From positions 186,001 to 250,000 of the forward strand of contig KV419410.1 in NCBI GenBank assembly GCA_001630475.1: 64,000 nt of DNA, written 5' to 3'. Each line of letters begins with the position of its first letter. The first letter of the stretch is position 1. The notes beneath the pieces are model-generated. The model did not search any database and was not told the DNA's origin. It saw only the letters and a list, made by a program, of their open reading frames with translations. Source of the stretch: Sistotremastrum niveocremeum HHB9708 (taxonomy: Eukaryota > Basidiomycota > Agaricomycetes > Sistotremastrales > Sistotremastraceae). The position numbers and the translations under genes are program-made. Shown piece by piece: positions 6,300 through 54,296 of this stretch.

Positions 6300-6382
6300 G
6301 TGTGAAAGATAGCAGAAATAGGCGTGCCGTCGGAGTTGCGCGTTCAAGTTCTCCAAATTCAAGAACTCGATGAGGCGACAAA

Positions 6383-9300
6383 ATGCTCAGATCAGCACCT
6401 AAGAAACTCAAGGTGCAGCTCGACAAGGCTTCTACTGCTCAGCAGAGAGTTGTTCATCGGCGTTTTACTACCTTCTCATCGTCTTCGACCACTTCGACGC
6501 GGTTTCGATTCCGCAACAGCGCCCCGTGGGCTGCTTCATTGCGTCATATCCATGCACGGGCAATATCATACTCTTCTATCCCAAAATTCGTAGCTCGGGC
6601 GTTCAGAGTGCCAGTCGCAGGGGCAACAGTTGGTGCAGGAGCATTTGGATATGCAAACTACAAAGTCGAGGGTACGTTCTCGCGTTCTCTTCTCGAAATT
6701 TCTTGCCTGATCCTCTACTCAGAATTACGAACCAAATCGAAAGAATGGATCAATGCAGCCCAGGAATCAGCTGGCGACTTCATAGATTCTGCCTCCGACG
6801 CATTCAAGAGCGCGCAGTCTAAACTGGCGTCTATCGAAATCCCAACGGTGGAGACACCCCAATTCGTCAAAGATCTGTTTGCTTCTTTGTCGTCCAACTC
6901 CGAAGGGAGGAAGTCAAACGATGGCGGGAATGGGCATGAGAGCGGGCGAGGTGGTCCTGGAGACGAGGAGAAGGCCACCATTGCGGCTTTGCTTGCGGCA
7001 ACATTGTCGGGTCCTTCGACGGACGCGCCTTCAAACAACGAAAGTCGATCTGAGGACCCAGACTCGCGGCAGAATGATCTCATGCGCATGACTCGAAAGC
7101 TGATCGAGATAAGGAGCATCTTATTGAGCATCGATCAGAGCGACAGCCTGAAATTGCCCAGCATTGTTGTGATAGGAAGTCAGAGCTCTGGAAAAAGCTC
7201 TGTGTTGGAGGCGATTGTGGGCCATGAATTCTTACCCAAGTGCGTGTTTGCCATAGTCGGGTCACTGCGATACTGACCGCTTGATCGAGCAGAGGAAATA
7301 ATATGGTGACCAGAAGACCGATCGAACTCACTCTGATCCACACACCTCGAAAGAGCGGTCTCGACGCCGAAGAGTATGGAGAATTCCCAGCACTCGGTCT
7401 CGGCAAAATCACCAACTTCTCCCAAATCCAACAGACCCTCACAGACCTGAACTTGGCTGTACCCGCCTCAGAAGCAGTATCCAATGACCCCATCGATCTC
7501 CGCATATACAGTCCCTATGTTCCCGATCTCACACTCATCGATCTGCCTGGATATGTGCAGATCGCTTCCATGGATCAGCCCGAGACTCTCAAGGAGAAGG
7601 TTGCCGCGTTATGTGATCGTTATATCCGCGAACCCAACATCATCCTAGCCGTCTGTGCTGCCGATGTGGATCTAGCCAATTCCCCTGCCCTTCGCGCTTC
7701 TCGCAAAGTGGACCCGTTGGGATTACGAACCATTGGCGTCGTGACCAAGATGGACCTCGTGCAACCCGAGCAGGGTGTATCAATCTTATCCAACAATAGA
7801 TACCCCCTACACCTAGGCTATGTGGGCGTGGTATGCAAGCCATCCAAGAAGGACAGTCACGAGTCTCCCCGTACGGTGGCTCGCCGGGGAGAGGATTCCT
7901 ACTTCGGCTCGCACAAGGACTACTTTGGGAGTTCATCGTCTCTCATGGTGGGCACCGAGACTCTTCGCCGACGGCTGATGGAGGTCCTCGAGTCCTCCAT
8001 GGCATCTTCTTTGCACGGCATCACGAATGCTGTACAACTTGAGCTAGAAGAAGCCACCTATCAGTTCAAGGTCCAGTTCAACGATCGGCGCATCAGCGCG
8101 GAATCTTATGTTGCTGAGACCGTCGACAGCTTGAAGGCGAGATTTAGAGACTTCACTTCGCAGTTCACGAAGCCACATATACGTGCGAAGCTTAAGGCTA
8201 TGCTGGACGAGAAATCGATGGATGTCCTCGAGCAGCTCTACTGGTCTGACAAGCGAAGTGAAGAATTGACCGCCCTCGCCACGGACGTCAAAGTGAAACC
8301 CGAGACCGTTGATTCTTATTGGCGATATAAATTGGATGCCGCTTCCAGTTTGTTGACCAAATCTGGTGTTGGACGAGATTCCACTATACTCGTCGCTGAT
8401 GGGCTGCGTTCACTCATGGAAACGATTGCGTCGGGGGAGCCGTTCAATTATCATCCACGGGCAGCTGAGCGCCTTATTCAGTTCTCTCATATGATCCTCC
8501 GGGATAGAATCGGTGTCGCATCCGATCAGGTCGAGAATTGCATAAAGCCATACAAATACGAAATCGAGGTGGATGCAAGAGAATGGGAAGATGGACGTGT
8601 CAACGCGATCGAGCTTTCTGAACGAGAGATTCAGATGTGCGAAGGTAAGCTGAAGGAGATCAAAAAGAGGGTTGGCGGGGGGAGGTATCTGAACAGGTTG
8701 ATTGCCTACGTCAAGTTACTCGAGGACCAAGAGACTGATAAGAAACGACTTCGCCGGTCTCAGGATGAAGATGCTCAGGACGACGCACCAAATCCGCTGA
8801 TAGACAACTACAGATATAATCCTGCACATGTACTTGATGGTGAGCTACTCTGCTGTCAGTGTATTGTCTTGCACTAATGACCCACACCGTCTCAGCTCGC
8901 CATGCCATGTTATATTCCGATCGTCTGAACATATTGAAGCTCAGAGCTGCAGCTCTGAAGTCCAAGCGCTGCAAAGGCGGCCCGCAGAACGATGTCTTCT
9001 GCCCCGAGGCGTTCTTGAATGTTGTGTCCACCAAGTTGGCGTACACAGCTGCAATGTTTATCAACATTGAATTACTGGACCAATTTTTCTATCAGGTACT
9101 TCATGCGGCTTTCATGTGTAGTTTTGAACCTGACACAGATTGTTTCTAGTTCCCACGAGAAATCGACTCTAGACTTATTTACGACCAAGACCGCAACGAG
9201 ATTCTAGAGTTTGCTAGGGAGAATCCCGTCATTCGCAAGCACTTGGACTTGCAGGAAAGGAAGGATAAGCTCGAGGAGGTAAATTTGATCATCTACGGTC

Positions 9301-30355: not shown

Positions 30356-30580
30356 GGCAGAAGGGTGGCAGGAGACTGACAAAATGAGTCAGGCGCCGGT
30401 GGCAAGGTTGGCCACGTGAGACGCGTTATCTGGTTATTATTACGTAATTCGACTCAGGTTCCTTAGCACGTCGGATTTTCGGAGAACAGTTTTGGTTTAT
30501 CTAGAGCTCCTGGGGCGTAATCGCTCCCGTTCCCCCCCAATTCACTCCCTATTTACCCCACTGGAATAGAACATAACATC
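30356..30580. promoter_or_regulatory. shared WSS1/PFK promoter with Gcn4-like and E-box sites
   Basis: The 225 bp between divergent start codons contains TGAGTCA at 30385-30391, the consensus of Gcn4/AP-1 bZIP factors, and the palindromic E-box CACGTG at 30413-30418, bound by bHLH factors. A C-rich run near 30530 and a pyrimidine-rich leader sit on the PFK side. Which gene each site controls cannot be told from sequence. Confidence 0.45.
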
Positions 30581-33500
30581 ATGAGTCACGACCTTCCTGG
30601 AAAACATAGAATGAGGCTCGCTGTGCTGACATCAGGCGGAGACAGCGCTGGCATGAATGCTGCAGTTCGTGCAGTTGTCAAGGCTGGCATCGTAAAGTGC
30701 GCTTGTCAGCTGATAGCTAGTATAAGCTCGTTGACATGGCTTTTCAGAGGCTGGGAGACATATGTTGTCCGCGAGGGTTACGAAGGCCTCGTGCGAGGCA
30801 ATTCTGTCAAGATCTCTCAACATTCTCCTACAAAGAGTGTAACCACCGTACCGAAATCAGTCCAGCACAATGCTCTGGTTCACAACTTGAGATTTGGAGA
30901 TGGTGAATTATTGAGGTCTGGAGAAGGCGATGCCGCTGAACGCAGCGGCGGGAAGAATTTGAAAGGGCGTTATATCATCAGAGTTGGTTGGGACGATGTA
31001 CGAGGCTGGATGGGAGAGGTACGGCGTTTCTTTTCATCTTGGATATCCTCGTCATCTTTGATGGGCTAAGGGTGGCACGCTGATCGGTACTGCCCGTTCT
31101 GCAGCTTTCCGCACTCCTGAGGGTCGCCTTACTGCTGCACACAATTTAATCAAGGAGGGAATCGATGCGCTATGCGTCTGTGGAGGAGACGGCTCGCTCA
31201 CTGGTGCCGACGTCTTCCGTGCAGAATGGCCTTCTCTCGTAGACCAGCTGAGGACCAAAGGTGGCAACATGGATGCTTATATGGCACTGGCAGCTAATAA
31301 ATTCCATCCAGGGGAGATCACCGAAGCGCAAGCAACCGCATATGCCCATCTCAAGATTGTAGGCCTCGTTGGTTCTATCGATAATGACATGTGCATGACG
31401 GATATGACAATCGGGGCTCCGACTGCCTTACAACGGATCTGCGAGGCCATTGATAATATCAACTCCACTGCAAGCTCTCATTCCAGAGCTTTCGTGGTAG
31501 AAGTGATGGGGAGGCACTGCGGCTGGCTTGCTTTGGTCGCTGGTGTAAGGTGGGCGAACCACCGCTGCGAAACTTTGCGAATGACAAAGTGACCTCCGAT
31601 AGTGCAGGAGCAGACTTCATTTTCATCCCAGAACGTCCGCCATTGGGTGATCCTTGGGAAGATGAGATGTGCGACGCAATCGGACTGGCAAGTTGCTCAG
31701 TGTTCGTAAGCCTGTTGAGCTGATTTCTGCCCATAGCATCGAAAGGAGGGCAAACGAAAGACCATTGTCATCGTTGCTGAAGGAGCCCACGATGCGGCGC
31801 TCAAACCCATCAAAGCTGAATACATCAAGACTGTTCTCACCGAACGTCTTGGTCTCGATACACGTGTAACTCAATTGGGTCATGTTCAGCGCGGTGGTCG
31901 GCCGTGCGCATGGGACAGAATTTTGGTAATAGCGTTTCTGTCAATCATGCTACCCTATCTGATCTGGCTCCAAACAGCCCACGCTTCAAGGCGTTGAGGC
32001 AATCAAAGCACTCATGGAATCTACTCCCGAAACGCCGTCATATATGATTGGAATCAACCAAAACAAGGTTATTCGCGTTTCCTTGCAGGAGGCCGTGAAG
32101 ATGGTATGTATGTTATATCTGGAATTGACGCCGTCTCACTGAGCTGCAGACTAAAGCCGTCACAACGGCAATTGAGGCCCGAGACTGGGACAAAGCAATG
32201 TCTTTGCGTGACCCAGAGTTTGCGGAGACCTTGGAGGGCTTCAGCATAACCTCGGAGTTGGGTCATAATGGATACCTGCCTGAAGAAAAGGTTTGTCCAA
32301 ACCTTATCTGTGTAACCTATGCTGAGTTGTATCCAGCGATTACGCATAGCAATTATACAGTGAGAAACCAAAACTTTCGGTAACCAGTCTACTGACTCCT
32401 TGCTAGCATGGGTGCCCCAGCGGGAGGAATGAATGCCGCCACTCGGGCTGCAGTACGATATTGCTTGCGCAAGGGACATACACCACTTGCAATACATAAC
32501 GGTTTCAAAGGTCTCCTGGATGATCACATCACGGAGCTGTCATGGCTTTCAGTCGATGGGTGGATGGCACGAGGGGGTTCTGAGCTCGGCACAAATCGGG
32601 CGTTACCTGACATTGACCTTGGCGGCGTCGCCGCAAAGTTCCAGAAACACCAATTCGATGCTTTCTTCATGATCGGCGGGTTTGAAGCCTTCACTTCGTT
32701 GTTGACGCTTGAAGCCGCAAGACAACACTATCCATCTTTCCATATACCTCTGGTCCATCTCCCCGCGACTATTTCCAATAATGTCCCTGTGACAGACTAT
32801 AGTCTGGGTTGTGACACGAGTCTGAATGCTCTCGTGGACGCATGCGACGCGATTAAACAAAGCGCTTCGGCTAGTCGAAATCGCGTCTTTGTCGTTGAAA
32901 CACAAGGAGGCAAATGTGGATACATTGCAACTATGGGCGCATTGGCGGTAATTATCTGTTTTCTGACCTGGATTTCCGTACACACATTGATCAATGTATA
33001 GACGGGAGCCGTCATCGTCTACACCCCGGAAGTTGGCATCAACCTCGATATGCTTCGCAATGATGTCCACTTCCTAAGAAACAGGTATAACCTGGATCAA
33101 AAAGGAAAGGCAGAAGGTCGTCTTGTGCTCAGGTTCGCTCATAGCGTTGCTACACGGTCCCAGATTAATAACTTTTCTCAAAGAAACGAGAGCGCATCAA
33201 GCGTGTATACGACCGATGTCATCACTAAAATTTTGAAGGAAGAGGGAGCATCGTTATTCGATTCGCGTTCGGCGTCGCTTGGGCACACACTCCAAGGAGG
33301 AGTTCCTTCCCCCCTGGATCGTGCTCGTGCTGTTCGTCTCTCGCTGAAAGCGATGGAATTCATTGAGAAATACGCCGAACAAATCAACAAACTTCCATCG
33401 ACTAAGCGAAAGGCTCCCAGGGAGTCAGCGGCAGTTTTGACAAGTCAAGGTTCACAGATCGTCGCCACCCCCGTGCAGGACATGGTGCAGCATGCCGATA

Positions 33501-33831: not shown

Positions 33832-35358
33832 TTACATGATGTTACAGTCGCCCTTCTTTTTCCGTTTCTCAGGTGTGTGGTATGCGTTCGCTCTCTGCGT
33901 GAACCCCGAATTGCGTTGATGTTCGTCGGAATATCGCCTTTCCTGCCGTGGATCATACTCAATCTGTTGAGGCTGCTGGCGCGTATGTTCTACGGACGTC
34001 TCCACCTGCGCTCGTCGGTCTCTATTCTGCTGCTGCTGTTGTTGATACAGTTGCTGAGCGCGGGCATCCTCTTCGGCCTGAAGCTGCCGCGCGAAAGCCT
34101 CGCTTTATAAAATGTCCCGTCAGATTATCTTCCGATGGAGAGAATGGGTACGTACTCTGCATTGTTTTGGTGCGCATTCTGCTCGTTCTCAATGGCCCTT
34201 ACTACCGTTTCTGCCGTAGCGCCGGCATAATCACCCCCTACTGGAACTGATGGTTTGAGGTCCGCGTCCACAAACTGCGATCCACCTTCTATGTCGTCAA
34301 GCTTTTCCCATACGATAGAAGATTCATGCGCGAAAACATGATCTGTGACTAGGGTGTATAGTCCGCCATCCCCGAACGCAGGCTTATGCAATACAGAGAG
34401 ATGAGAATTCCGGAACAGGGCCACCAGTTCGCCAGGTCGAAGTTCGGAAGAGAGTTGAAATAGACCGTGGTATGTAAGTTGAGATTGTGTAGTCTCCAAG
34501 AAATGTTGGACAACCACAGCTTCCCAGACTGTCAGTGCGGCGTCGTACGAAGGCTGATGATACGTACCATTTCTCACTTTCTCTCGTTCCTCTGCGCTCA
34601 GCTTCTGCATTTCATCGTGCCTGTTCCCTGATTGGACGTGTCCGTTCGAGCTCTCTCCCACATCGTCCGATACAGTCCATGTCTCCACCAGTTGACCTTT
34701 GGTTATACTATCAGCAGCGACTATCAGGTCCGTCGAGTTGTCGTAGTCTTGTGTGGTGGACAGCACAGAATATTCGTGGCTTGTTGGATCAACGAGCCAT
34801 CCGTGGACGAGTTTGATGTTGGCATGCTCAAAGAGCTTCAAGGCACCCCCATCCCCATGTGGACGAAATAATGATAATCCAGTGAAGAGCGGATTGAGGT
34901 CAAGACCATCTAGGCTCTTCAATTAGGACATTGCTAACAGAGAACAAAGCACGTACTTTGGGTGAGAGGGAGAATAGTGAGTGCAGCTGCGATATCAACC
35001 CCGGGCGAGGCTCGAAGAAGATACTCTGCGACAAGAGCTGAAAGAAACTCATAGGCAACTTCCCGTCGTTCCGGCGGTAGTATAACGATGTCGCCACGCA
35101 AGATCAATATATTGCCTGAATGAGGAAATTCAATCTCTGCCTCGGGATGCGGGGTTCCCTCTCACAAAGTGCAATGAATGAGCACGGTCTGAGAAAGTGT
35201 TCAGGACGAGAGGACACACTGCAATGCATTACATACCCGTTCAAAGTCTGCATTATGACCTTGATCTTCTCATTTGGTGCATTAGGTATCGCCCGCCATT
35301 CGATCTCTTTGAGCAGCCAGACATCTGCTCGTGCAGTTCCCAATGCATTGTTGGACAT
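33832..35358 (-). CDS. MINDY-family deubiquitinase with C-terminal CaaX box
   Basis: MINDY (FAM63, formerly DUF544) enzymes cut long Lys48-linked ubiquitin chains. Exons give DVWLLKEIEW, MQTLNGPCSFIALCNILILRG (catalytic Gln and Cys), LDGLDLNPLFTG, LVHGWLVDP, LTYHGLFQLSSELRPGELVALFRNSHLSVLHK (catalytic His in NSHLSVL) and VWEKLDDIEGGSQFVD. The catalytic Cys lies on a 23 nt exon (35166-35188). After a 57 nt intron near 34070-34150 the tail is Gln-rich (a QQQQQ run) with an AFARQLQAEEDARAQQL helix like a ubiquitin-interacting MIU motif. It ends KRKKKGDCNIM, a basic patch plus CaaX, suggesting farnesylation and membrane attachment. Stop TAA at 33832-33834. Confidence 0.9.
35166..35188 (-). other. 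23 nt micro-exon of the MINDY gene (catalytic Cys)
   Basis: Bounded by AG and GT in the sense direction. It supplies PCSFIAL, including the nucleophilic Cys. The intron before it is about 50 nt and the one after about 50 nt. Confidence 0.85.
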
Positions 35359-35639
35359 TCAAAAGAGCAAGAGAGTATGTCAAGGTATCAAGGTATGTTC
35401 AGAGAGTTTCCAAGACCAGAACGAGCCGTATAAGTAGAGAAACCCTGTTCAGAAGGCTGCGCTCACGCCGAGCGGAAGCCAATGACGCGGAATGGCTCGG
35501 AACACCAAATTGGGCATGCCACCGCTACTTTACATCCGATCATCACGATCAGCGTTAATCTTGCCTGTCTTTCCAAATCTCGAGATTAAAAGACACTGCC
35601 TCCAAAACTCACTAAGAAAATACATCATGTATAAACGTG

Positions 35640-38600
35640 TCAGGCTGCTAGGCCATTTGCACGCAGAGAAAGTATCTTAATTTCAAAGTCTTGTCGCACT
35701 GCCTCATCCTCGGCCAGCTCAGCTGCTGATAAACCCTTCGCTAGGAGTCTCATTGCGGCTGCGTAATCTTTCTTGTCCAGTGCGATATCTGCCATTGCCC
35801 AGAGGCACTCGGCGATTTGTCTCTGAGCCCCTATGCCCTCCATTATGCCCATCGCAGTCTCGCAGCACGAAGCCGCGTTTGATTTTTCGCCCAGAACCCC
35901 CAAGACAGTTCCTATCTTCACAAGGGCGTCGGCCATCCCCAATCGATAAGATGTCTTCCAAAAGACGACGCAGCTCGTCACGTAAAGCCTCAGCCCAAGC
36001 ATCAAATCGTCGGACTTCATTGCCACATCCCCCATTAACTTCAGTGCCTCTCCATCGCGTTTAACACCAATGTCGTTCGCCAGCCGGTAGCATCTTCGTG
36101 CTTCCAATAGGTGAGAACACGCTGTGGCAAAGTTTTGTCTTCGAAGCTCTGCAGTCGCGAGGAAGACCAAACAGTGTCCCTGGTCGCTTCTCCATTGGAA
36201 TTCTGCAAACTTGGTCAACGCCACATAGATTTGTGCTGTCCCTTCGTCCAAGTTTGACTGCATGACCTGCACTAAACCCAGCAAGGAGGTTGCGCTGGCC
36301 AGCCAACCCGTTCTCGCTTGTCTGGCATAGAGTGTGCAGGCGTCTCTGAACGTTTTGTTGGCGAGTTGGAGTTGTGACTTTTCTAGATGTAGGCATCCGA
36401 TGTGATAGAGATTGTTGGCGTAGAGCGCACTGTCTTGAAATACAGGTGTCATTGCCCGAGACGCCTGTTCGAAGCAAACAGCTGCCTTGGGTAAAGTAGA
36501 ACGAGCAAAATAAATTGCTCCCAGAATAGAGTGAGCCGCGGCCTTGATCATCGGAAGTGAATGTGTCGTTGCAATTGCAACAGCTTCCTGAGCAGAATGC
36601 ACCGCCTGTGGGATTTGTCCCGAGATCTGATATATTCGCGCGATATTGACTAATTCGTTGCCTTCACCCCAATAATCGAAGCATTGGCAGTATAATCGGA
36701 TTGCATCTCTCTTGAGATGGATAGCCTTCTGCCTCTGCCCAACACGGTGATGGCAGTCGCCTATGTTTGCGAGGCACCTGGCTCGACTTTTGAGGACGTC
36801 TGGATCCTCGAGGTCCTGTAATTGAGTATACATGGACATTGCATTTTCCAGTTCCTCTAAGTCCTGAGAAACCTCTCTGTCGGCACGTCGTCCGTACGCG
36901 TAGACTATGCAGTCTGCTTCGCTCTTCTTGTCGCCTATTCTTCGAGCGGCAGCAGAGACGCTGGCTACAAGGGCTTGCTCAGAATCTACCGCGGTGCCCA
37001 AGAAAACAGGCAGTTTCAAGGAGGTAGCCAACACCTCTCGTATTGGATTTTCTGCTTCCAAAGCGTAGCGAAGGACCGAACATACATTTCCTATCTGAGA
37101 TTTCAGCTTCGAAGCTTGCTCTCGATCGTCAAACCGGCCATCACGGGCCTGTGCGGTGCGGATCAGGTCCAGAAAATATGATTGGATGGAGGTGAAGTCG
37201 CTGTAGTCGAGTGGTATGTTCAGCAGCACGTATTCGCGAATGGGAGAAAGAATTCGGAGACGGTCCGAAGCATCGACATATACTAAAGCCACTTGTCGAA
37301 GACAGGAGACAGCGGAAGAGATCCTAGGTCGATGTCCCATAATCGACAAGAGTTCAGACTCAGAAACGCCGTCCGGAAGCAAAGAGAGTCCCTGGAGGAC
37401 TGGGATAGCCTGAGGTGAACTTTTGAGTCGTTCACTCGACAGGGAAAGCTGGATAGAAACGTCGACGCTGGAAATCCGTGACTGGATTCCCCTCGTGAGC
37501 ATAGCAGTCTTTTCTTCCTGCCACCGAGTGTGCAAGACGGCGCATGAGCAGCTTTGGGCCAAATTAGCCATCAAAGTGACTGCTAGAGGAACATGATCGA
37601 GGACATCAAGGAGTGAGTCGAGGTGGGGATCATCTGCCGGCGTGTCTGAGATCGCACGAAATACGTTCCGGGAATCCTCAAAATCTAGCTTGTCTAAGGG
37701 TGGGAGACACGGTCGGGTCCAGACGACTCCATTGGGCCGCTCAGCTCCTCTGAGAGTGACAAGAAGACTTAGGTTTGGAATAGCGACTAATGTTGAGAGC
37801 ACGTCCTCAACTGCCTGGCGGTGAGAAAACTGCTCCCACGGCGTTTCCAGGTTATCGAGTAGAACGACAATGGGCTCATCGAGCGAACGAAAGAGGCGAG
37901 ACAATTCTGTCAAGACGTCTTTGCTCTGCAGGGAGAGAAGTTCGGCCAGAGCGGCCATAAGGCCAATGGAGTCCAGGGCTGATTCGCATGAAACAAAGTA
38001 TCGGTTCTTCCCGAACTTTGATACGACCTCAGGGTGATGGAGAACTGTCAGGGCGACAGTAGTTTTCCCTATCCCGCCTGCCCCAAGGATCGCGACATTG
38101 GCTTGTCGTGGCTGACAAAGCTGAGCCACCACCGAACCAACGGTTAAATCGCGTCCAAAGAAAATTTGAGGGGCGGGAGGTAGAGATTGAGATCTGCAGT
38201 CCAAGTTTTAATTTCTGTTTAGTCGGGCCAGTGATTAGCTTAGATCACGTACCTATCTTGAATGTCGCTAGTGCCTGTAAGCTGGATGTGATGTCAATTC
38301 TATGTGCTCGATTTTTTTTCCCGACCGACCTACCTTTCTGTCGTTTGAGTGGATCAAATTCGCCTGATCACGATATGCTCGAGCAATCATGTCGCCGAAA
38401 GCGTCGTGGAACGTCGACCCCTTCTCACCAATCTGAGATGTCAACTTTATATTGGTTGAGTTTATGCGCATCTGTTTTTCCCGATTCAATGAGCGGATCT
38501 ATGAGTGAAGGAGGGAGCCTACAAGAAACATGGAAACGCATCGCTCAAGATCCGCCTCACATCGTTGAACGATACCAGCGTCCCCGACACCGTTCAAAAT

Positions 38601-39087
38601 CCGTGATAGCCTCGACGAGGGCTTCCTTGTAGCGACTTGAGAGATCTCCTCCAAAGTGCTGCAAAATTGAAAATTGAAAGGTGATCGCAATGGCTGGTCA
38701 AGATACTAACCGGAGTAGTTGTCCAATGGGTAGTACTAGTCCATCTCCAGTGGCATGTGGATCGTCGTTGATGACACTGACAACTGCCCAAGTAACCTCT
38801 ATGACTCGTGAAGCAAGGCGTTTGATATCTGTTGCGTTTCGCTTCGAGTCCTTGGGAAGAGAACACAAATCAGTATCAAAAGTTCCCTCAGCAGCGAGGA
38901 GATACACTCACAGAAGCAGCCTAACATCCAATTTAGAAACATGACGATTTCACCCACGAATTCACTAGAAGCTACAGCTTACCTGGTGAATGAGGAGACT
39001 TAAACTGGCGAGGCTTTTCGGGTATGGAAGGGGAGATAGATCAGCGATAGCTTTCAGGCCTCGCAAAGCAGTGGATATCTCTGACAT
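35640..39087 (-). CDS. NLR-like STAND ATPase, helical N-domain + NB-ARC + TPR (copy 1)
   Basis: A nucleotide-switch protein of the fungal NLR type. One 854-codon exon carries QIFFGRDL, P-loop GAGGIGKTTVAL, Walker B VVLLDNLETPWE, the sensor LVTLRGAERP, the GLPL-like HVPLAVTLMA, a winged-helix segment (LSLLPDGVSESEL; ILSPIREYV), then about twelve TPR-like helix pairs (ARCLANIGDCHHRVGQRQKA and similar). Upstream, five small exons from ATG 39085-39087 encode a helical domain: STALRGLKAIAD...SLLIHQ, then DIKRLASRVIEVTWAV, PIGQLLR, TLEEISQVA...RLSRIL and LERCVSMFL. The pattern fits the HeLo/MLKL-type N-domain used for membrane attack or signalling in other NLRs. It shares intron positions with copy 2. 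The trigger is unknown; roles in nonself recognition or cell death are inferred from family. Confidence 0.88.
38253..38274 (-). other. 22 nt micro-exon of NLR copy 1
   Basis: It is placed between the end of the helical domain (LTSQIG) and SQSLPPAP, giving TSDIQD, by phase and splice sites. Less certain than the other small exons because no conserved motif anchors it. Confidence 0.5.
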
Positions 39088-39280
39088 GGGCAAGGATAAG
39101 CCCCATGCTGTCGCTGCAAGCAGAAATCATCTTCTTGGGTACGTAACCACCGGTCAGAGTCAAAATTCGGAAGGAGTGGACAGAAAAAGGAAAGAGCGAG
39201 ACCGGCGATTCAGATGAACTCATTCGTCTGATTGATTCGAATTTCCGTATTCACTCTTCTCCACATCATCCCTGCGCAAC
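39088..39280. promoter_or_regulatory. bidirectional promoter of NLR copy 1 and HUB1
   Basis: Only 193 bp separate the two divergent start codons, so core promoters must overlap or abut. CT-rich sequence lies just before the HUB1 start. No specific factor site is evident. Confidence 0.5.
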
Positions 39281-39670
39281 ATGGGCCTTATTGAAGTGAG
39301 CTAGAATTCTGTTCGGCCGCCGACATTCCACTCACATAACCGCCCTAGGTAATTGCTAATGATCGACTTGGCCGCAAAGGTCTGTTCGATTGACTTCCGC
39401 GATGGGACATGGAGCTAAGATTGGTGCGATGTCTTACAGTCCGAGTGAAATGCAGCCCCGAGGATACAGTAGGCGATCTCAAGAAACTTATCGCCGCACA
39501 GACAGGCACAGATGCTAGTAAGATCCAGTTGAAGAAATGGTGCGTGCACAAGCCGAACTCCTTCTTGCAGCAATTGTTCAAATCCGACTTACAGGTACAC
39601 TATTTACAAGGATCACATCACGCTCGGGGACTACGAGATCAACGACGGAATGAGCTTGGAAATGTACTAA
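39281..39670 (+). CDS. HUB1: Ubiquitin-like splicing modifier Hub1 (UBL5)
   Basis: Four exons give a 73-residue protein: MGLIE (15 nt first coding exon), [10 protein letters not shown] (31 nt exon), [20 protein letters not shown] with [12 protein letters not shown], and [20 protein letters not shown] ending LEMY. This is the complete UBL5/Hub1 fold, including the lack of a C-terminal di-Gly. Hub1 binds Snu66 non-covalently in the tri-snRNP and helps use weak 5' splice sites. It uses a TAA stop at 39668-39670 and converges with GEP4, 78 bp apart. An alternative ATG at 39409 lies inside an intron and is out of context. Confidence 0.95.
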
Positions 39671-39748
39671 GGTCGTCCGTCCAACGATCCTGCCTCGCGT
39701 TTCACTTCCTTGCATTCTGCTTTCATGACCAATATATGCGCATCCCCA

Positions 39749-40688
39749 CTACTCTTTCGATTTTCTCCACAAAAGTGGTGGCACACTGAACCATGTATCC
39801 GACCCATCTTTCTCCGGGAGGCTTGCCTCATCGCTGCGGGAAGGCTTAGGGTCTTCTAAAACGAAATTCCGGGTGAAGCCTGTCTCTTCCGTGCCAATGG
39901 TGCCCTTCCATCTCTTTGCCAAGGAGAGCAAAGCCTTTTCTCCCTCGCGTATGGCAGTAGCCTCTTTCTCCCAAATGCCAGTGGTCCACACGCTCAGGGA
40001 GCCCATAGAATTAGCCATGATGACGTCCGTTAACAGTCGATCTCCAACGACGGCAAGATCCTTTAAGTCCACGGATCCGGAAGACAATGAAGAGAAATAA
40101 TCAGATATGGATTGGATGCACTTGGAGCTCGGTTTGGGAGACGAATGTAGGAGGACTGGGACGCCCAAGTAGTGTGAGACGGACTCTGCCTACACGAAGT
40201 TGAGTACTGGAACGTCTCAGAAATGCAAGCCTTACAGCAAGAAGTCCTGGGTCATCGGCTGTACCTGCAGAGTTCGAGACAATCAAGACATTGCCTTTTC
40301 CAAAGGTTTTAAGACAGGTTTGCCACGATTCCTACGAAGATGAATGTTTGGTCGTTAGAATGGCGTTGAATCCAGGTCACCTCCAGGTCAGGTATCAAGG
40401 TATCTCGGTTAGGCAAAGTCTGATGATGAGATGATGAACAAGCATCCCACAACCGCGGATAAAAACCATGTACCACACAGTTATCCTTGTCGAAGACTAC
40501 TCCCTTGTAGCCAGCATCTTTTAAGGCGTTGAAGTTGAGCTGTCGGATGTCTATTTGGAACTGCGTGAGCCGACAATTGAATATAAATGCAGTGCATAGT
40601 AACCTCGGATCGTTATGGAGGGAACGATAAGATTGGGCCGTATGGCAAGTTTCAATGCGGCGAGGATAGCAGGAACATTGGTGGGCAT
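39749..40688 (-). CDS. GEP4: Mitochondrial phosphatidylglycerophosphatase Gep4
   Basis: Gep4 (HAD superfamily) dephosphorylates PGP to phosphatidylglycerol at the matrix side of the inner membrane, a step of cardiolipin synthesis. The protein starts [20 protein letters not shown] at 40686-40688. It shows the family motif [20 protein letters not shown] (HAD motif I DxDNC), then [14 protein letters not shown] (motif II Ser), [10 protein letters not shown] (motif III Lys) and [16 protein letters not shown] (motif IV GDRxxTD). Four introns. An ATG 7 bp upstream is out of frame. The tail ([16 protein letters not shown]) is not conserved. Divergent from NLR copy 2. Confidence 0.94.
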
Positions 40689-41000
40689 CGAGCATGACGT
40701 AAGCTTCGACTAAATCAGATGTCGTTCACAATTCAAAGCATTTCTAGGCGTCGTCGGGAACAACCGCTGTCCCCTGAACCAACCTGTATTCATGGACGGT
40801 CTATGATGGTCAAGCGAAACATTTCATTCAAGTTAATCGGTCGTTCTACGAACATCCTGCCATACTATTCCGGATCTGGCAAATCAAGGGCCAAATAACT
40901 AATGGTCACAGCTTTCCCTCAGGCCCAGCATTGGAGTGGGCCTTAATACTAATACTATCGTCACTCGCCAGAGTGCGGCCACAAAGACTGCTACTCGACT
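40689..41000. promoter_or_regulatory. bidirectional promoter of GEP4 and NLR copy 2
   Basis: 312 bp between divergent starts, mirroring the HUB1/NLR copy 1 arrangement. I see no clear factor site. Confidence 0.45.
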
Positions 41001-44000
41001 ATGCCTGGCGGAGGACGCGCGGCGATCATCCAAGGACTAAAGGCTGCCTCAGAGACTTCCAATGTGGCATCTCTCAGGATCATTGCCAGTCTTGCTCTTC
41101 TACTGCACGAGGTGTGTGAAAGCCCTGTCGACGCCACGATCAGGATCTAACAGTACAGTACAGGCCTCTACTGTATATGATGTTACTCTCCGAAAGCTCA
41201 CATGGCACCTGATCTTGGTTTCTCTGACAGAAATCCGCGTATCGCAGCGAGGATGCTCAACTTTTAATCACGCATGTTGTTGAGACTGCATCAGCTGTTG
41301 CCACCTCCCTGCGAGACGCCGAAACGAGCACGTTATCCGAAAGTCTCATTGAAAGCTTGAGACAATTACAACGGTACGTTTTGATCGTACTAACAGGTCT
41401 TATTGATTAATTGAGTCTCAACAGCACAGTCGAAAACGTCGCCAGGCACTTGCAGAAGAATTCAGAGGGTTATAAATTCGCTAAACTCATCGGCGTCTCG
41501 AATGAGAAAACGAGCGTCAAGCGACTCGAAGATGAATTAGAAAAAGCAATTTCATTAGTCATGGTATGTCTACTAATCGTCTTGTACGCGTTATCTCCTG
41601 CACGTGGTGACCTTTCTCTAGTTACAAGCGAAGCTTCAAAATCTAAGCCTTTCGCAAAAACTGAACGAGAATGAGGTTGCCTATCAAGACTTACTGGATA
41701 TGACTATGGCTAGTGTGAAAACCGAGCAACAAGAGAAGCTCAATACGCCGGGGTCCTCTATTGCACGTCTCCTTTTTTCGATTCCCGTGCTTGGTTGACT
41801 TTGTTTCTAGTCCTTCTCAAGTAGCCGTTCGGGGAGGTAAGCTTGACCGTTGCATAACCCTGATTCTATTAAATAACAACTGGTAGTCCTCAGCATGCGC
41901 TTCCGAGTGCTCCGCAGATATTTTACGGACGTTCGGGCAATCTTGAACATGCCGTTGCACAACTCCAGAAAGAAGAGCAGGCTCACATTGCCATCCTAGG
42001 TGGGGGTGGCATAGGAAAAACAAGCTTAGCCCTTGCGATTTTGCACCATCCAGAAATCTTGTTAAAGTTTGGGGATCTGAGATTCTTCTTCTCTTGCGAA
42101 GGTTCTCCCGATGTGAATACCCTCGCAGCATCGCTTGGGAAGCATCTCAATTTCGGGCAGCACGACTTGATACGAAGTCTGACCCTGTTGTTGAAGAACG
42201 CATCCTCTCCTGCCCTCCTCTGCCTTGATAATTTTGAGACGCCGTGGGAGCCGGCTTCGAACAGGCTTGCTACCGAAAACCTGTTGTCCGCTCTCGTCCA
42301 AATATCGGGATTGTCCGTCATCGTCACGCTGCGTGGCTCTGAAAGGCCACTAGGCGTTCGATGGAGTCGCCCTCATTTGCCGCCTCTGGGTCGACTGGAC
42401 ATGGAATCGGCTAGGATGGCTTTCTTAGCGATCTCCGATGTGTCAGACAAGGATCCGTTAGTCGGGCGACTATTGGATCTCATGGACGGTATCCCACTGG
42501 CAGTGACCCTCATGGCCAATCTAGCTCAGTCTTGTCCATGCGCAGAGCTGTTAGACATGTGGGAGGTACAGAAAACGGCAATGTTAACGCGAGGTTACGA
42601 CGCACGCCTCTCAAGCATCGACGTTTCCATCCAAGTATCACTGAACAGCGAACGTTTAACATCCTCAAAGCATGCAACTTTCATTTTGAGGGTCCTTTCT
42701 CTTCTCCCTGAAGGTGCTACGAAGGAGTCGCTGATCGACATGACCTCAGTAGGCAAGATACACTTAGTATCTGCAATAGCCACTCTTCGTCAGTCCGCTC
42801 TAATATATGAAAGTCCTACGGCGCAGATACGTGTTCTGTGTCCGATCAGGGAGCATATGTTAGCGCGTGGCCCACTCGACTCGACCGAAGCTAGACCAGT
42901 ATGGACCTATCATTTCAATCTGGCAGGGGAGATAAAGGAGTCGATCATCAATCCATCCAATCCAAACCGCCTTGGATGGATCCGCCCCCAAATGGCTAAC
43001 ATATCTGCCGTTATCCTCCATGCTCTCGACAGCGTTGATCCTCCCGCAGATGCTGTTCATTCTGTTTTGGATCTGCGATCGTTCGTTGAAGCTCCAGGGG
43101 CTTCGCCCCGACTCTTGTTATCAGCAATGGATGTAGCTCAAGCGCTTGGCGAGCGGAAACTCGCAGCTGACTGCATGGCACGCACATATCGGTTTACGGC
43201 GATCGCTCAAGACGCACATAAATCACGTAAACTTTTGGAAACTGCCCTCGAAATTTACGCGGAACTCGAGTCAGAAGACACGGGGATCGATCGCGCCTAT
43301 TGTCTGAAGCACCTCGGTTTCTGTCTAATTCGCCTCGGCGAGGTTGACGCGGGTCTTGCAGCCCAGCAAGAGTCCATTGATCTTTGTAGGCAAGCCAAGG
43401 CCAGCGCCGAGCTCGCCGAGAGTTTAAATTGTCTCGCTCGCAGCTTGCTCGACTGCGGTCGGCCATGGGATGCTTTGATACTCGCCAGAGAAGCAAAAGA
43501 AATTGCTGAAGAGCATAATATTCCCATTCAAAGAGCGTATGTCCTCAATTCCCTGGGCCATATATACTTCGACCGCTCGGCATTTCTCGTCGCTCTATCA
43601 TATTTTCAAAAAAGCCAAGCTCTGTGTCTGGAAATATATGGAGAAGGAGGGACTTTCGTTGCGGGCCTTGAGGCAATGGCTAAAGTCTACCATCGATTGT
43701 CATGGTTCGACGAAGCGCAGGATTACTACACGCAAGCCAACAGCTTGTGGGAGAAGATCGATCTCGTCACTACGGATTATGATCCCATTGCCAATAATTT
43801 GCGGGGTCTGGGAAGCCTTGCTTTTGCTAAAGGGCATCTGGAGGTCGCCATAGAACGATATCAACGTTCTCTCACAAGATTTGAATTGTACGGTTTCTTC
43901 TACGATCAGGCACTTTGTCATGCCGGCATCGCTCAGGTTGAATCTACCCGAGGCCAGCATTCCGCCGCAATGACGCGTCTCTTGAAGGCAAGGGATCTCT

Positions 44001-44452
44001 GTCGTAAGCAAGGAGTCCTCAACGTCAACCACGGAGCCACTGTTCACTTCGCCATGGGAGACGTAGCTTTTGCATCGGGTGAGCTGCCCACAGCAACGAC
44101 ATTCTTCGTTGTTTCAGGGGCAATATATCGGAAAGTAGAACAGCGGCTCGGACTGGGGATCTCAATCATGAAACTCGGTGATTTGGCACTGGTGGACGAT
44201 CGTATCTCTGACGCTAAGTCCTGTTATTTGGCGACTTGGGACATGATTCGCTACCTTGGGAGCCGGTGCAACCTAGCCGACGTTCTTTGTAGGCTTGGTG
44301 ATGTGGCAATTCGGGAAGGTCAGCAGAGCGTTGGGCGACAATACATCGAAGAAGCTTCACTACTGTATAGGAAAGCAGGAGCCCTGACCGCACTACGGAA
44401 GACAAATGAGATGACCATCAACGGCTATACTCACCATACTTCTCTTGTCTAG
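41001..44452 (+). CDS. NLR-like STAND ATPase, helical N-domain + NB-ARC + TPR (copy 2)
   Basis: Counterpart of copy 1 on the opposite strand. The first exon (41001-41111) encodes MPGGGRAAIIQGLKAASETS to LALLLHE, then after a 118 nt intron KSAYRSEDAQLLITHVVETA, then QRTVENVARHLQ, and LEDELEKAISLVM with LQAKLQNLSLSQKLNENE. This helical N-domain aligns residue for residue with copy 1 and has the same splice positions. The large exon gives QIFYGRSG, P-loop GGGGIGKTSLAL, Walker B LLCLDNFETPWE, IVTLRGSERP, GIPLAVTLMA, LCPIREHM and TPR repeats (AYCLKHLGFCLIRLGEVDAG and others) to the TAG at 44450-44452. A linker (ASVKTEQQEKLNTPG), absent in copy 1, precedes the NB domain; its intron (about 41750-41886) is my best guess. 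Confidence 0.88.
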
Positions 44453-44642
44453 CGTGTCATAGCTCATGTAATACTTACTACTGACTTATCCTTGACGCCC
44501 CAAATTGGGACATCATGAAATTGCATGTGCAGGCCACGGCCGGGAACCAAGAATTGTGCTCATGTGTCATATTGCATATGCATGAAGTACGAAACACACA
44601 GGGAGGAGACGACATGTAGCAGTAAAAGTAAACACGAGCAGA

Positions 44643-46064
<1,422 letters not shown>

Positions 46065-46418: not shown

Positions 46419-49400
46419 TCAATGACCTGGCGGCTGCACGCCACTACTATGGTCAGGCGTGATGCCTAGTAGCAATCCTGTACTAGGATCAATTCCGCTC
46501 GAAAGATAATTGCCCCAGTCATCGTATCTGCACAAAACATTAGCAATTTAGCCCGACATGGCATGAACGGCAGCACTCACTCGAAGCTCGCAGGAGCCGT
46601 TGACCACATCCCACCCATCAGATCGACATCCGTGGTACTGGGTGCACCGCTGCTTTGTTGTGAACTGGGCGTGCTGAACGCACTTGGCTGCGGATGAATG
46701 TTCCCATGCGGATTCATCGATAACTGTGTCTGATTGGCGATATATGGGTCATAAGACACGCTGTTTGGATATCCCATTTGAGGATTCGACGCGTCAGCAA
46801 ATATCGAGTACATCAAGCCCTGCTGTGTTTGTGGCTGCTGAGGGGGCCCTTCGTACCGAGGCGTCGTTTGCTGTGACGGCGGCAGCACCTGACTGGTGGA
46901 AGGTTGGGATTGATTTCCATAGGTTGGTTGCTGGTGGTTTTGATGCTGATGTGATGGTTGAGCATGATATGGGTACCAAGGCATGGTCCCCAGGTTCTCC
47001 TGAGAGGCTTGTCTGTAGCTGTAATCGGGGTGCAACGGCAACTGACCCAGAACGACACTCGTAGCAGGATGTTCGATATTAGCAAGGGACGGGGGGACAA
47101 ATTCGTGTGAGGCAGAGGGGGAAGCCTGTGGCTGAGAAACTTTACGAGCAGCGCCCCTGGAAGCTAAGGGCTGTCGTGCCTTCGCAATAGGACGACTGCC
47201 GGGTAGTGTCGATGGCAGATCGGTAGTAGAACTAGTTCTCGAATTGGAGGCGTTCGCGATGGGACTGTCTGAATCTCGCTCTCTCTTGTAGCCAGTCTCG
47301 GGAGGGCTGGGTTGAGGCAAAGGTAGCTCTCCAACTGAAGCGAGCTCGTACAGGATATCCCTACGATTTGAAGTCAGAATAAGAGGAAGCAAATACAGAC
47401 ATATTTAAACACACCATAGCCTTCCGGCTGTTCTCCATCGATGCTCACACTGCTTCAAGTACTGCATACATTTGTGTACATCTTGCATCTGTTTTGACGG
47501 TTCCCCATATAAGCCACTCTTCTTCGCGCCCCATATGTTCAACAAGAGCACAATCCCCGAAGTGAAGATGCAGGATTGTAGTTGTGGCGCGAGGGCTTGA
47601 GTCCGCCGCCGTTGAATGTCCACTACATGCGAGCATGACCTGGCCGCATTGGTACAGATGGCCAAAGAAGGGAATGACAGTGGGGATGGCTTGCGAGGCG
47701 TAGGAATGAAAGGGCGATGAATCAGGATCTGGAGGTGGTAGTATGTCGCGTAGAGAGAAACGGATTGGTCAAAGAAGAGTGGATCTTCTCTCTGCGGATC
47801 CCATTTGACTATAGTGACATCAGCGTTAGTCAGGAGATCCGCATGGTTCCATCCTACTCACGATGATCAGGGACGGAATCTATCCATTTGTTCAGGGCTG
47901 AATCCAACTCAGCCACTATATGCTGCTCCCACTGTGGCCCAACGAAGCCCAACAAGATCTTGGACTTGTTGATGGAGTACTAAGCGTCAAGAGAATTTGA
48001 GTACCAGAATTGTAGAAAAAGGGAATGACTAACAATCGTCCGCAGTGCGAACGCAAGAATCTGATTTAACTTCAAAAACGAGTTAAAGTAAGAGATCATG
48101 GACGGGCGGTCAGAAGGCTGCTTGAAGGCCTTATCGGGATCAGGATGTTCCCAAAATTCGTCGTCCACCTCCAGGGGCATCTCGATGTCGAAGCTATTGG
48201 AGTCGGCATAAGCATGACGCACAACGCCAAGTATAACAAACGCACTCTTCATCCTGTATTGCACAAGGACGCCCAAGCGACGAGCTCGCAAGACGATCCT
48301 GAGCGACAAGACACCAGAACGCACGTTTCCACAGCTCATCTTCCACGGGGTTATCCCCGTGTTGTACTTTTCGGCGATGTGCGCCGACATCTTGTGCCAA
48401 ACGAATGCCGACACCGACCATTGTCCAACCAGCATGGGGAGCCGAAGAGCCCTGGAGGAACATGGCAGAAAGCTAAAAAAGGAATCATTCGATCCATATG
48501 AGAAATAAGGGTCAGGGCGGGCAATCAAGCGGACACATACAGCAAAAGCCTGCAAATCATACAAACAAGGTTGAGCCAGCGGACTTTTTCTCAAACTTTG
48601 GGATTGTTCGAAGAATTTCCATCCCGCCGAGTGTTGAGATCCTTCTTCGGCCCAGAGAACCCTCGGATCATCCGACCACCGGGAGGCCACTGCACAGGTG
48701 ACCAGAATTACGGATGCAAGACTCTTGTCCTTCTCCCATTGACGCTCTTTGTACAACCGTTCATAGGTTGGGCGGTGCAACAAAGGTAAGAAGGCGTTGA
48801 CGTAGCGAAAGAAAAGGTCCGTCAGAGAGTAGAAAAGGTCGGGCTCAGGCATGGGAACGGGACCATCGGGTTGGTCGGCACTTGCCCATTCCCACTGCAC
48901 ACGTCAAAGGGCCAACGGATGGATCAGCAAACGGAGTTGTTGAACGCAGGGAATACGGAACGTACGAGAGGAGGAGTCCAGAACTCCTGGAGCCGGTTCT
49001 CCGGTATTGGCGAAGGGAGATTGTGGATCCCAGAATATTCTCTTTTCATGTCCATAGCAGCTTGGACGAGCATGATGCCACTGGACTTTCCATGGAATCT
49101 ACTATCCGCGGTATTGACAGCCAGGCGTTTGAGACCCTCGGCCAAGGTAGCATGGACAAGTTCTTCGTCGTCTGAAGGTGCCAAATCCTCTTCTCGAACC
49201 GTTGCTTTTTTAGAGCCGGGTGTAGGACGCATACCTGCAACCGCTGGAATCTCATGACGAGGAGGCGTAGGTTGCTTCGCGTTTGAGGTGACGAGACGAG
49301 TGGGATCCGTCGAACGATCATGGTACCATGTTTCCCTGTTGATGTACTGGCCGAGCTCCTGTGTAAAGTCGGCGTCGGGGCAGAGCTAGATAGTCAAAAA

Positions 49401-50950: not shown

Positions 50951-53900
50951 TTACCATCCGTTGCCTGCAGGGGCCCAACTCTTATTTCTGTTCATGTATG
51001 CCTGTCGATTGTGTCTTCCGTCATCAGGGCGTCCCTCTGAGCCGTTAATCCCATTGGTGTTGCCGTTCCCATAGCCATAGCCATGAGGATGGGCTGCCTG
51101 CGCCTGCGTCAACATCTGTTGCCTCATCTTGAAATTCCTCCCCTGGCGCTTCTCCCACAGCACGTTCCGCCTGACGCTTTCACTCATCTCGTTCGCGAGC
51201 ATTTGTCGGCGTATAGCGGCGGGGCTCTGTGGAGGCGGCGGGAGGGGAAGATTATACGGATAACCGAGTGTGATAGGAACAGCGGGCGTCTAAGAGGAAC
51301 AATGCACAACACGGAAAAAGTTAGCTCTTTCGCTCGAAATTGGTATATGAGCCAGCACATACCGTGTCTTCCGGCGCGGACTGTCTCCTATCCCTCGTAC
51401 CATTCATCGCACCCCCCATCACGCCGTTCGACGCTGATGGACGCGATTGGGCGTCAACCCCAGCGACAGGACTCTTCGCAGAAGCACTCCCGCTTCTTTT
51501 GTTGTTCGAAGCCACCAAGCTCTCCAACTTCCTTTGCACAAGACTCTTGCTCAAGGTATTGTCCTCCTCTCCATCAGTATCACTGTCCTCCTCCTCCACA
51601 TTGGCAGGTCGTCCACGAGGTCTCATAGACGGACCGGAGCCGGTGGACGTGGTGGCAGCAGTGGGACCGCTGTTAGCCTTGACAGACGCGGGTCCAACGA
51701 TCCCATTTTTGCTGTTGACGCTCTCAGCGGTAACGGCAGCCATCTGAGGAAGCGCAGCAGAGGATTTGCTCGTTGGGAACCTCGTGCTGGCTCCGTACAA
51801 AGCGGGACCACCAGGATTCCAGCCTTTGGCAACGATGTCCTGATGACTGAGGGAGGTGCGATAGGGATGTCCTTCGGGGAATCGATTGGGATTCGGGTGG
51901 AAGAGTTCAGAGAGTAGCCCGCTCTTGGTCCTCTTCGCCAAATCCGTGTACGATCTCGTCGGCAACTTAGCAAACATCTCCCTGTCCTTAGCCGCAGCCT
52001 CTGCGGCCAGTTCTTCTGGAGATTTTTTCTTCGGTGCGGGGGCCTTCCCTTTCTTCTTGGTGTCCTCGCCCTCATCCAACTCGCTCGTCCATCCTTCTTC
52101 GTCGACATCTTCATCCGAATAAAACTCAGATGAAGTAGAGTCCACTAACTGAACCTTCCTGCCCTTGCCGTTGGGTAAAGGCGGTTGAGCAATATGCCTG
52201 GCATCGATTTGTGTGATTTGATGCAGGGGTAGAGGAGCAGTTTGCGATCGTAACAAGGCAGGCTGTATCAGGTAGAAGATCAGCATATCCGCATAGTTAC
52301 CGCGCGGGGTAGCAGAGGAAACTAACCTTGACATGAGCAGTCTCCTTTCCTTTGCCCTTGCCATTCGCGCCGTGGCTCGTTCTCCTCTCAGCGGATGGAC
52401 CTCGTTCCCTGCTGGAACTATTCATTCGAACTTTCTTTTCCACCCGTACACCGGAGGGTGCATGCTTTCCAGCATGCCCTGCTGGATGTGCAGCAGTCAT
52501 CGTCAACCCGGTGAGCCCCTTGGTCTGCCTCATACCAAGCTTGCTCTTTGCCCCACTCGTTTTGACCACCTCCTTAGCCTTCCCCTTACCAGACTCCTTT
52601 TCCTTCTCTTTAGCCAACTTTCCACCACGACTCTTGTTTGATCCGACGCTGCGAGCATGACTAGATGCCACACTGGCGTGCTCGTTGCCCTCTGCGATGT
52701 TGTGCAGCTCAGTGGTGGGGGCGGCAGATGTAGTCGCGATCGCCGAGACAGGCACTGCCACTTCGGATTTGGGTATCGCGTCGTGATCGCCCTCTTTCTC
52801 CTTCATTCGGGATTTCCCATCTCGTTTATTTTCAAGCTGGGCAATATTGGTGAGCATGGCATCGGGTGGGAGTGGTAACTGAGTGATCTCCCTCACAGGT
52901 GAGAGGCTCGAAGTGGATTTGTGGAGGAAGAAGATGCCGTCCTGTCCTCCTCTTCTGCTGTCTACAGACTCGGAAGTCGAAGATGAAGAAGAGAAGGACC
53001 GTGCGAGTGGAGGCTTGACTGAGAGTGGCTTCTGCTGAACACCGAGTGCAGAGGAGGGGTTTCGGAGGGGCGAGGTTTTAGAAATGATCATAGTTATGGG
53101 GGGTGGAGAGAGGCTGCCAGAACTGTTGGAAGTGGTAGATAAAGAACGATGCGAGTGCGGCGGAGCATTTGATTGTGAGCCAAAGCCGGTCACTTGCGGC
53201 GGTTCGGCAACCTCGGGAGTGGCGGGAGGGGTAGGATGAGGAGTTGGATTTACGATCACTAAACGAGGGGCTAGATCACTGGCCGCCGCGGCGCGAATAT
53301 TACCAGAAGCGTCGGCATGAGCTGCAGCAGATGGTGAGGATGATGAAACGACGAGGAGCCGCGTGGGCGGTGTCGGGGGTGCGGCCTCGATCGAGGGGGG
53401 GCTGGCGGGAGTCCGGGTTGGAATTCGGGTCCCGGAAGATGTATCTTTCGCCGGAGCTTCTCCGTAACCCGAGTCAGAAACAACGTCAGAGGCTAACGCC
53501 GGCGACCGGTGCGATTCTGCATGGCCTGTAGCTACTGGCAAAGATCTTGCAATACGATCCGGAATAATGTCTCGGATCAGTCTCCCAATGGGAATGGGAT
53601 GCAGGTGCGGCGGAGAGCCAGTCGGATCGCTATTAGCTCTTGAGGATAAGGTAGGACGTCGGGGGGAACTAGGGTGGGTGGTGGTAGGAAAGGATACATG
53701 GCGGGGTCGACGTTGATGGTGGTTGTGGTTGTGGTTGTGGTGAGATTGAGTCTGGCGATGAGAATGCCGCCGCTGTCGGTCACCTGATGCGGGGGGTGGC
53801 GCCGTAGAAGAAGACGATTTAGGAGTGAGACGCGGGGAGGGAGCGCGGGAGTATGATTTGCGTGAATCAGGGAGTACGGGGGTAGTTGTGGTCGACTTGA

Positions 53901-54296
53901 CGGGAGCAACTGCCTCTTCCTTCTCTGACTGAATGTCGCTATCTGATTCTGAATCAGAGGTGGACGAAGTGTCTGTCTCGTCTTCTTCTTCCGACAGAGT
54001 GCTGGACAAATTGGTGGCACTGCGTACTGCCTGATCAGCGCGACTAACTCGCTTCGCATCAGCATCCAAAGCCATCTGCCGGTGCCATAGTCGCCATGAT
54101 ATGTTTTCAAGTCGAGAGCCGTCTTCCAAAGAGTCCTTGCACTTTGTAAAGACTAGAAAACGATGAGCAACGGAGCACGGAACAAAGGCTGGGACTGCTG
54201 ACCATTCCACAGCCCACAAACGACATCGTCGCTCTGGATGGCCATGACAGCATCGACTGCAAGACAGAGGACAGGACTAGGTAACCGAGTTTTCAT
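50951..54296 (-). CDS. GATA-AreA-like N-domain / DUF3295 regulatory protein
   Basis: A large, mostly disordered protein of about 1,050 residues. Near the start, QSDDVVCGLWNVFTKCKDSL followed by EDGSRLENISWRLWHRQ is the DUF1752 (AreA-N, GATA-like) motif; at the C-terminus LPLPPPPQSPAAIRRQMLAN then EMSESVRRNVLWEKRQGRN is the DUF3295 motif. Between them are acidic Ser-rich blocks (SDSESDSDIQSEKEE), Pro/Ser/Thr-rich stretches, a His/Asn run from a GGTTGT repeat near 53718-53741, and nuclear-type basic patches. Four exons; introns at about 54154-54203, 52265-52328 and 51292-51361. The same pairing occurs in fungal proteins linked to nitrogen and TORC1 signalling (Mks1-like); that role is inferred. 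Stop TAA at 50951-50953. Confidence 0.82.
53718..53741 (+). repeat. GGTTGT short tandem repeat (in-frame)
   Basis: About four units of a six-base repeat inside the DUF3295 gene. On the coding (minus) strand it encodes an alternating His-Asn run, so unit number changes would keep the frame. Confidence 0.7.

Follow-up and report, generated by a model that had tools for sequence, protein, structure and literature searches.

In plants, nucleotide-binding leucine-rich repeat (NLR) receptors can be encoded by head-to-head gene pairs, such as RGA5/RGA4 and RRS1/RPS4. Basidiomycete NLRs are poorly described and numerous, with a mean of 83 per genome given in the available part of PMC10197012. The closest described class, BaMLKL, carries an N-terminal bundle of the MLKL type that is preceded by an extra helix in the models presented in the accessible portion of PMC9815663. 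Other fungal NLRs join an NB-ARC core to a sensor made of tetratricopeptide repeats (TPRs) and, as far as the accessible text of PMC4986451 goes, 21.2% of fungal NLR TPRs show high internal conservation. Here, two genes of the STAND type (signal transduction ATPases with numerous domains), named NLR1 and NLR2, are analyzed in a stretch of 64,000 nucleotides from Sistotremastrum niveocremeum HHB9708 (contig KV419410.1, positions 186,001 to 250,000), referred to as the window. Their products belong to a known kind of receptor, and the locus is best explained if both are paralogous, autonomous, all-in-one cell-death receptors, most likely derived from an old local duplication, with the HUB1 and GEP4 genes between them as housekeeping bystanders; this explanation is probably correct.

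The preliminary description of this stretch, made from the bare sequence, reported two divergent receptor genes enclosing convergent HUB1 and GEP4 genes. This geometry was fully recovered, including genes, coordinates, orientation, and the gaps between start codons of 193 bp for NLR1 and HUB1 (39087 to 39281) and 312 bp for NLR2 and GEP4 (40688 to 41001). The common architecture it assigned to both receptors, with a helical N-domain, a nucleotide-binding (NB) core, and TPRs, was found as well. Two long intron-free frames (855 and 859 amino acids) lie on opposite strands, and each includes the terminal exon of a gene with seven exons. The exon-intron models were built from the reading frame and the GT-AG borders, and both run without interruption from ATG to stop. 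All introns are GT-AG, with six of 51-62 nt in NLR1 and six of 50-69 nt in NLR2, the least certain being the NLR2 intron 41753-41821 (donor GTCCTC), where a later donor could lengthen the protein. Four of the six junctions agree between both genes in aligned place and phase: in the spliced models, junctions 1 to 4 fall at aligned codons with equal phases (0, 0, 2, 0), and the remaining two lie in a variable linker, one of them unequal in phase (0 versus 2) and the other equal (2).

The spliced proteins share 33% identity over 996 amino acids (BLASTP, E 2e-156), and 332 of 1023 positions are identical when they are aligned as a whole. By domain, identity amounts to 169/332 (51%) in the core formed by the NB and winged-helix domains (NB-WHD), 35/134 (26%) in the N-domain, 107/430 (25%) in the TPR region, and 8/48 in the linker. 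Judged by this alignment, NLR1 and NLR2 are real, old paralogues, and the earlier view of their NB cores as homologous but diverged holds. A tblastn search of the window with both proteins, at E up to 1, revealed no third homologue, the sole further match being 52905-52543 (E 0.18).

The C-terminal region of both receptors consists of repeats of the superstructure-forming kind, as indicated by TPR_12 matches above cut-off (E 1e-17 in NLR1 and 2.9e-21 in NLR2) in Pfam, which was run on 20 of the 41 longer window frames listed plus some others, and by the paired helices seen in the structural model. The core scores closer to the thresholds. In NLR2, nSTAND1 passes its cut-off (27.8 bits; 27.1 required), being the sole nucleoside triphosphatase (NTPase) family to do so, and NACHT (18.2) and NB-ARC (16.6) stay well below theirs. 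In NLR1, NACHT (25.7; 26.7) and NB-ARC (22.3; 23.5) fall about one bit short, and nSTAND1 (22.2; 27.1) is also below cut-off. Invariance of 28 columns across an alignment of 19 rows, including NLR1 and NLR2, identifies a P-loop NTPase of the STAND type. A STAND-type fold is likewise predicted by AlphaFold2 from NLR2, NLR1, and 17 bacterial relatives, with a predicted local distance difference test score (pLDDT) of 84.4 and a predicted template modeling score (pTM) of 0.77, the model being poor beyond approximately residue 770; an earlier model from NLR1 and NLR2 alone was poorer (pLDDT 70.1, pTM 0.48). Foldseek ranks 6mfv first among PDB structures (E 1.5e-13, TM 0.41/0.51), a protein of the STAND type whose sensor is built of TPRs. 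Avs3, the NB-ARC domain of tomato NRC1, and Apaf-1 occupy ranks 32, 38, and 46 among the 50 matches listed, and most of the remainder are TPR proteins or proteins with other repeats.

A scan of prokaryote genomes yielded 25 confirmed relatives out of 49 pattern matches, all of them bacterial, with core identities of 28-39% over aligned stretches of 107-361 columns. The motifs LDN-x-ETPW and P-x-R are invariant in the 19 rows. In viral contigs, two scans returned 17 and 2 pattern matches, none of which was confirmed. The phylogenetic tree comprises 21 rows, 19 of the 25 bacterial loci among them (L003, L007, L013, L020, L024, and L025 were omitted, since they are cut or partial in the core), and the alignment A2 holds 17 bacterial rows, with L009 and L021 additionally omitted. 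Among the 10 loci scanned for their N-domains, 7 carry a domain in front of the core: TIR, SIR2 (two cases), metallophosphoesterase, PNP_UDP, DUF4062, and a Rossmann oxidoreductase. No front domain was seen in the other 3, and Pfam detected no four-helix bundle in any of the 10. Four loci were also analyzed with padloc, which assigned L001 to the TIR-like ThsB model (E 7.7e-33) and L005, weakly, to ThsA (E 7.6e-6). Judging from these sequences, the switch and the sensor of NLR1 and NLR2 are of a kind that bacteria join to varied, partly defence-type effectors, and the effector in this fungus looks like an MLKL-type bundle. As a separate observation, one Sorangium record encodes at least two related STAND-TPR proteins, L012:6828-9470 (PNP_UDP) and L001:7476-10457 (TIR), which are sisters in the tree (100/97) and illustrate how effectors are exchanged while the core stays the same.

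The assignment of the N-domain to a four-helix, MLKL-like bundle is supported by NLR2 and by a profile of both copies. MLKL_N is the top Pfam family in NLR1 and NLR2, each match starting at profile position 5. For NLR2 the match reaches E 8.9e-5 (22.5 bits), with the runner-up at E 0.068 and plant RPW8 at 0.33; for NLR1 it is weak (E 0.12, or 0.10 in another run), and no other family appears at E up to 1. When the two-copy profile was compared with 177,635 PDB sequences, MLKL chains were the best five matches (E 0.0044-0.0077), and the nine matches at E up to 10 consist of six MLKL chains and three GCN4 fusions. The profile has 22 positions ahead of the part aligned with MLKL, which agrees with the additional helix at the N-terminus of the BaMLKL models reported in the available part of PMC9815663. 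Both receptors thus appear to lie near this class.

Part of the predicted bundle is encoded by a putative in-frame microexon of 9 nt. In NLR1, the 132-nt gap between the neighboring exons contains a single AG-N9-GT site (0.58 expected by shuffling), and in NLR2 the 119-nt gap contains two, one of which is the microexon (0.35 expected). Its omission weakens the MLKL_N matches, which supports the prediction: the match of NLR1 is lost (from E 0.1 to none), and that of NLR2 shrinks from 29-151 to 56-148, losing the part of the first helix (E 7.4e-5 to 1.3e-4). In both models the microexon falls where the first helix of the bundle ends, and its skipping would preserve the reading frame in both genes. 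Alternatively spliced microexons of 3 bp are described for Tuber NLRs in the available part of PMC10197012.

Table 1. Features of the NLR1/NLR2 locus and other genes of the window (positions in the window)
Feature	Position	Strand	Description
NLR1	39087-35640	minus	seven-exon STAND gene, 1036 aa; predicted MLKL-like helical N-domain, NB-WHD core, TPR array
NLR1 exons (5' to 3', plus-strand coordinates)	39087-38983, 38920-38912, 38850-38711, 38658-38523, 38471-38334, 38281-38253, 38193-35640	minus	105/9/140/136/138/29/2554 nt
NLR1 N-domain, approximately residues 1-130	38523-39087	minus	predicted MLKL-like four-helix bundle
NLR1 microexon	38912-38920	minus	predicted; 9 nt, in-frame, Ala-Ala-Ser; flanking introns 62 and 61 nt
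NLR2	41001-44452	plus	seven-exon STAND gene, 1037 aa; domain order as in NLR1
NLR2 exons	41001-41111, 41164-41172, 41231-41373, 41425-41563, 41622-41752, 41822-41836, 41887-44452	plus	111/9/143/139/131/15/2566 nt
NLR2 N-domain, approximately residues 1-134	41001-41563	plus	predicted MLKL-like four-helix bundle
NLR2 microexon	41164-41172	plus	predicted; 9 nt, in-frame, Ala-Ser-Thr; flanking introns 52 and 58 nt
HUB1/UBL5-type ubiquitin-like gene	39281-39670	plus	four exons, 73 aa; Pfam ubiquitin E 3.6e-7
GEP4-type mitochondrial phosphatidylglycerophosphatase	ATG 40688, stop codon 39749-39751	minus	inner exon borders provisional
Phosphofructokinase-like	30521-33001	plus	flanking, housekeeping in appearance
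MINDY deubiquitinase-like	34128-34922	minus	flanking, housekeeping in appearance
Ribosomal protein L4-like	45031-45600	minus	flanking, housekeeping in appearance
Mgm1-like dynamin	6374-8874	plus	
Fungal-type transcription factor	47983-48903	minus	
GATA_AreA-type regulator	52300-54276	minus	

The ubiquitin-like gene next to NLR1 is presumably HUB1, a name given for its sequence features; HUB1 is a splicing modifier. A tie between NLR expression and splicing through HUB1, raised in the preliminary description, would be conjectural. The GEP4-type gene is recognized by PGP_phosphatase in two stop-to-stop frames (E 5e-16 and 7.8e-5). A promoter scan of 40688-41001 gave no match with a bacterial consensus, which is uninformative for a fungus.

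In the proposed mechanism, the TPR array would be the sensor of each receptor, the NB-WHD core would act as a nucleotide switch that oligomerizes upon engagement of the sensor, and the MLKL-like bundle at the N-terminus would be the executioner that attacks the membrane. Each copy may bring about cell death independently of the other. Both would descend from a single ancestral gene in which the exon plan was already present, most likely through an old local duplication, and would have diverged since then mainly in the N-domain, the linker, and the TPRs. A local duplication is favored by the proximity of two genes of one subfamily with a shared exon plan, and the large divergence places it long ago. 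The presence of one core in bacterial STAND proteins with varied N-domains fits the view of the effector as an exchanged part.

Several results weigh against this explanation. A number of N-domain and core scores lie under the curated cut-offs, including MLKL_N, whose 22.5 bits for NLR2 are below the required 27 and whose E is 0.12 for NLR1. The N-domain of NLR2 alone retrieves no MLKL chain from the PDB, its one match being to GCN4 (E 0.34), and one of five decoys, a shuffled one, reached E 0.0013 with the unrelated DUF6990. Because of this decoy, the case for MLKL rests on the agreement of two genes and two databases and not on one score; MLKL_N itself appeared in none of the five decoys (two reversed, three shuffled). 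A profile of the core and TPRs matched 37 PDB chains, all through stretches of the TPR region and none named as an NLR or STAND protein. The tree program flagged the residue make-up of NLR1 as unlike that of the alignment. Besides, NLR1 and NLR2 are the sole fungal rows, so that their grouping as sisters (100/100) is trivial, the other rows being bacterial, and a local duplication is inseparable, on these data, from family members landing close to each other.

The latter reading treats both genes as scattered paralogues from a large family, brought into proximity through transposition or chance; it involves neither a local duplication nor a functional link and is rather unlikely. It would account for the large divergence of the cores (tips of 0.53 changes per column for NLR1 and 0.63 for NLR2), and for HUB1 and GEP4 being unrelated, which leaves no mirrored block. 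It would also agree with the lack of a long inverted repeat, an inverted duplication visible in the DNA having been rejected: of 49 inverted pairs of at least 14 nt in 34000-46000, the longest has 35 nt (77% complementary) and links both LDN-x-ETPW stretches, and the other pairs among the 25 listed (16-26 nt, several of them between NLR1 and NLR2) are indistinguishable from chance. Against this reading stands the proximity of two members of one subfamily with one exon plan. If 83 NLRs are placed randomly in a genome assumed to have 12,000 genes, chance alone should give 1.7 pairs of NLRs separated by two genes or fewer, 0.43 of them divergent, and closeness alone is therefore ordinary; for a single subfamily, the expectation is 0.01 pairs with 7 members, 0.05 with 15, and 0.22 with 30. 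It is distinctly improbable that the two proteins are STAND-TPR regulators of development or metabolism instead of immune or cell-death receptors. Such a role would agree with matches to bacterial regulator models such as AfsR and HaaT, far below cut-offs, and with TPR regions that lack tandem repeats of nearly identical sequence (none in either protein at score 30), are thereby unlike the internally conserved fraction of fungal NLR TPRs and show no sign of the concerted repeats associated with allorecognition. The MLKL-like N-domain and the defence-type N-domains of some bacterial relatives (the ThsB-like TIR of L001 and the ThsA of L005) argue against it.

The preliminary description further proposed that both genes form a sensor and helper pair with split roles, comparable to head-to-head pairs. 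Its view of both products as homologous STAND/NLR receptors, of the cell-death type found in fungi, holds; the split into sensor and helper is not supported. The start codons of NLR1 and NLR2 are 1913 bp apart with two genes intervening, so the arrangement is not literally head-to-head and the two have no promoter in common with each other. The extra linker attributed to NLR2 disappeared once introns were placed: between exon 4 and the P-x-A-P-Q motif that precedes the NB domain, inclusive of the motif boundary, NLR1 has 60 residues (131-190) and NLR2 54 (135-188), so that the spliced models, with the NLR2 intron 41753-41821 uncertain, show no longer linker in NLR2. Core conservation is nearly equal. 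Among the A2 columns that are filled in 14 or more of the 17 bacterial rows, NLR1 keeps 28 and NLR2 30 of the 31 invariant ones, and each keeps 44/54 of those conserved at 90% and 61/86 of those conserved at 80%, which leaves a sensor/helper asymmetry unsupported. A different alignment has 53 columns in which NLR1 does not follow the bacterial consensus, and 63 for NLR2. Neither protein was found to contain an integrated or extra domain, neither has a degenerate NB or N-domain, tip lengths are similar, and MLKL_N is the best-scoring N-domain family for each, its weaker score in NLR1 being the only asymmetry noticed. That the two cooperate, as sensor and helper or as a hetero-oligomer, with their linkage kept by selection as in plants, is an attractive guess, unsupported and improbable. 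It would be consistent with the divergent orientation, close linkage, common architecture, and old divergence with both copies intact, and the greater divergence of N-domain and TPRs relative to the core would allow different inputs. However, the chance expectation given above covers such closeness, and the shared subfamily points to duplication, yet duplication is not function. No fungal NLR-NLR pair was named in the titles and abstract openings of the literature surveyed, which does not prove that none has been published. Less probable still is a mixed oligomer of the two linked MLKL-headed receptors in which the microexon would serve as a splice switch, tuning or silencing the executioner, possibly under the influence of HUB1; if true, two divergent TPR sensors would feed one membrane pore. 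With two intact copies, whose predicted executioner and sensor have diverged but whose switch has not, the locus offers a handy test of whether linked receptors in fungi act singly or jointly.

Compared with known systems, NLR1 and NLR2 most resemble the BaMLKL NLRs, which have, as predicted for both copies, an MLKL-type four-helix bundle after a short segment, followed by a nucleotide-binding oligomerization domain (NOD) core, and from which no structural difference is apparent in the sequences and the accessible part of PMC9815663. With the fungal NB-ARC/TPR NLRs they share an NB core and a TPR sensor, but they differ from those described in the available part of PMC4986451 in having no near-identical internal repeats, and their core lies near or below the NACHT, NB-ARC, and nSTAND1 cut-offs. 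The bacterial STAND-TPR proteins (Sorangium L001/L012, Acidobacteriota L002/L004, and others) have a related core with the same invariant motifs, and differ in the scanned N-domains, where other domains or none take the place of the four-helix bundle. Plant pairs such as those named at the outset likewise consist of two divergent NLRs in proximity, whereas NLR1 and NLR2 have two unrelated genes between them, no integrated domain, and no motif decay. Finally, the fungal two-gene death clusters of the nwd2/het-S type are similar in placing an NLR near another death-related gene; there, according to the accessible part of PMC10197012 and the listing of PMC3321046, the NLR is combined with a separate effector, whereas NLR1 and NLR2 are each complete, with a predicted effector domain of their own.

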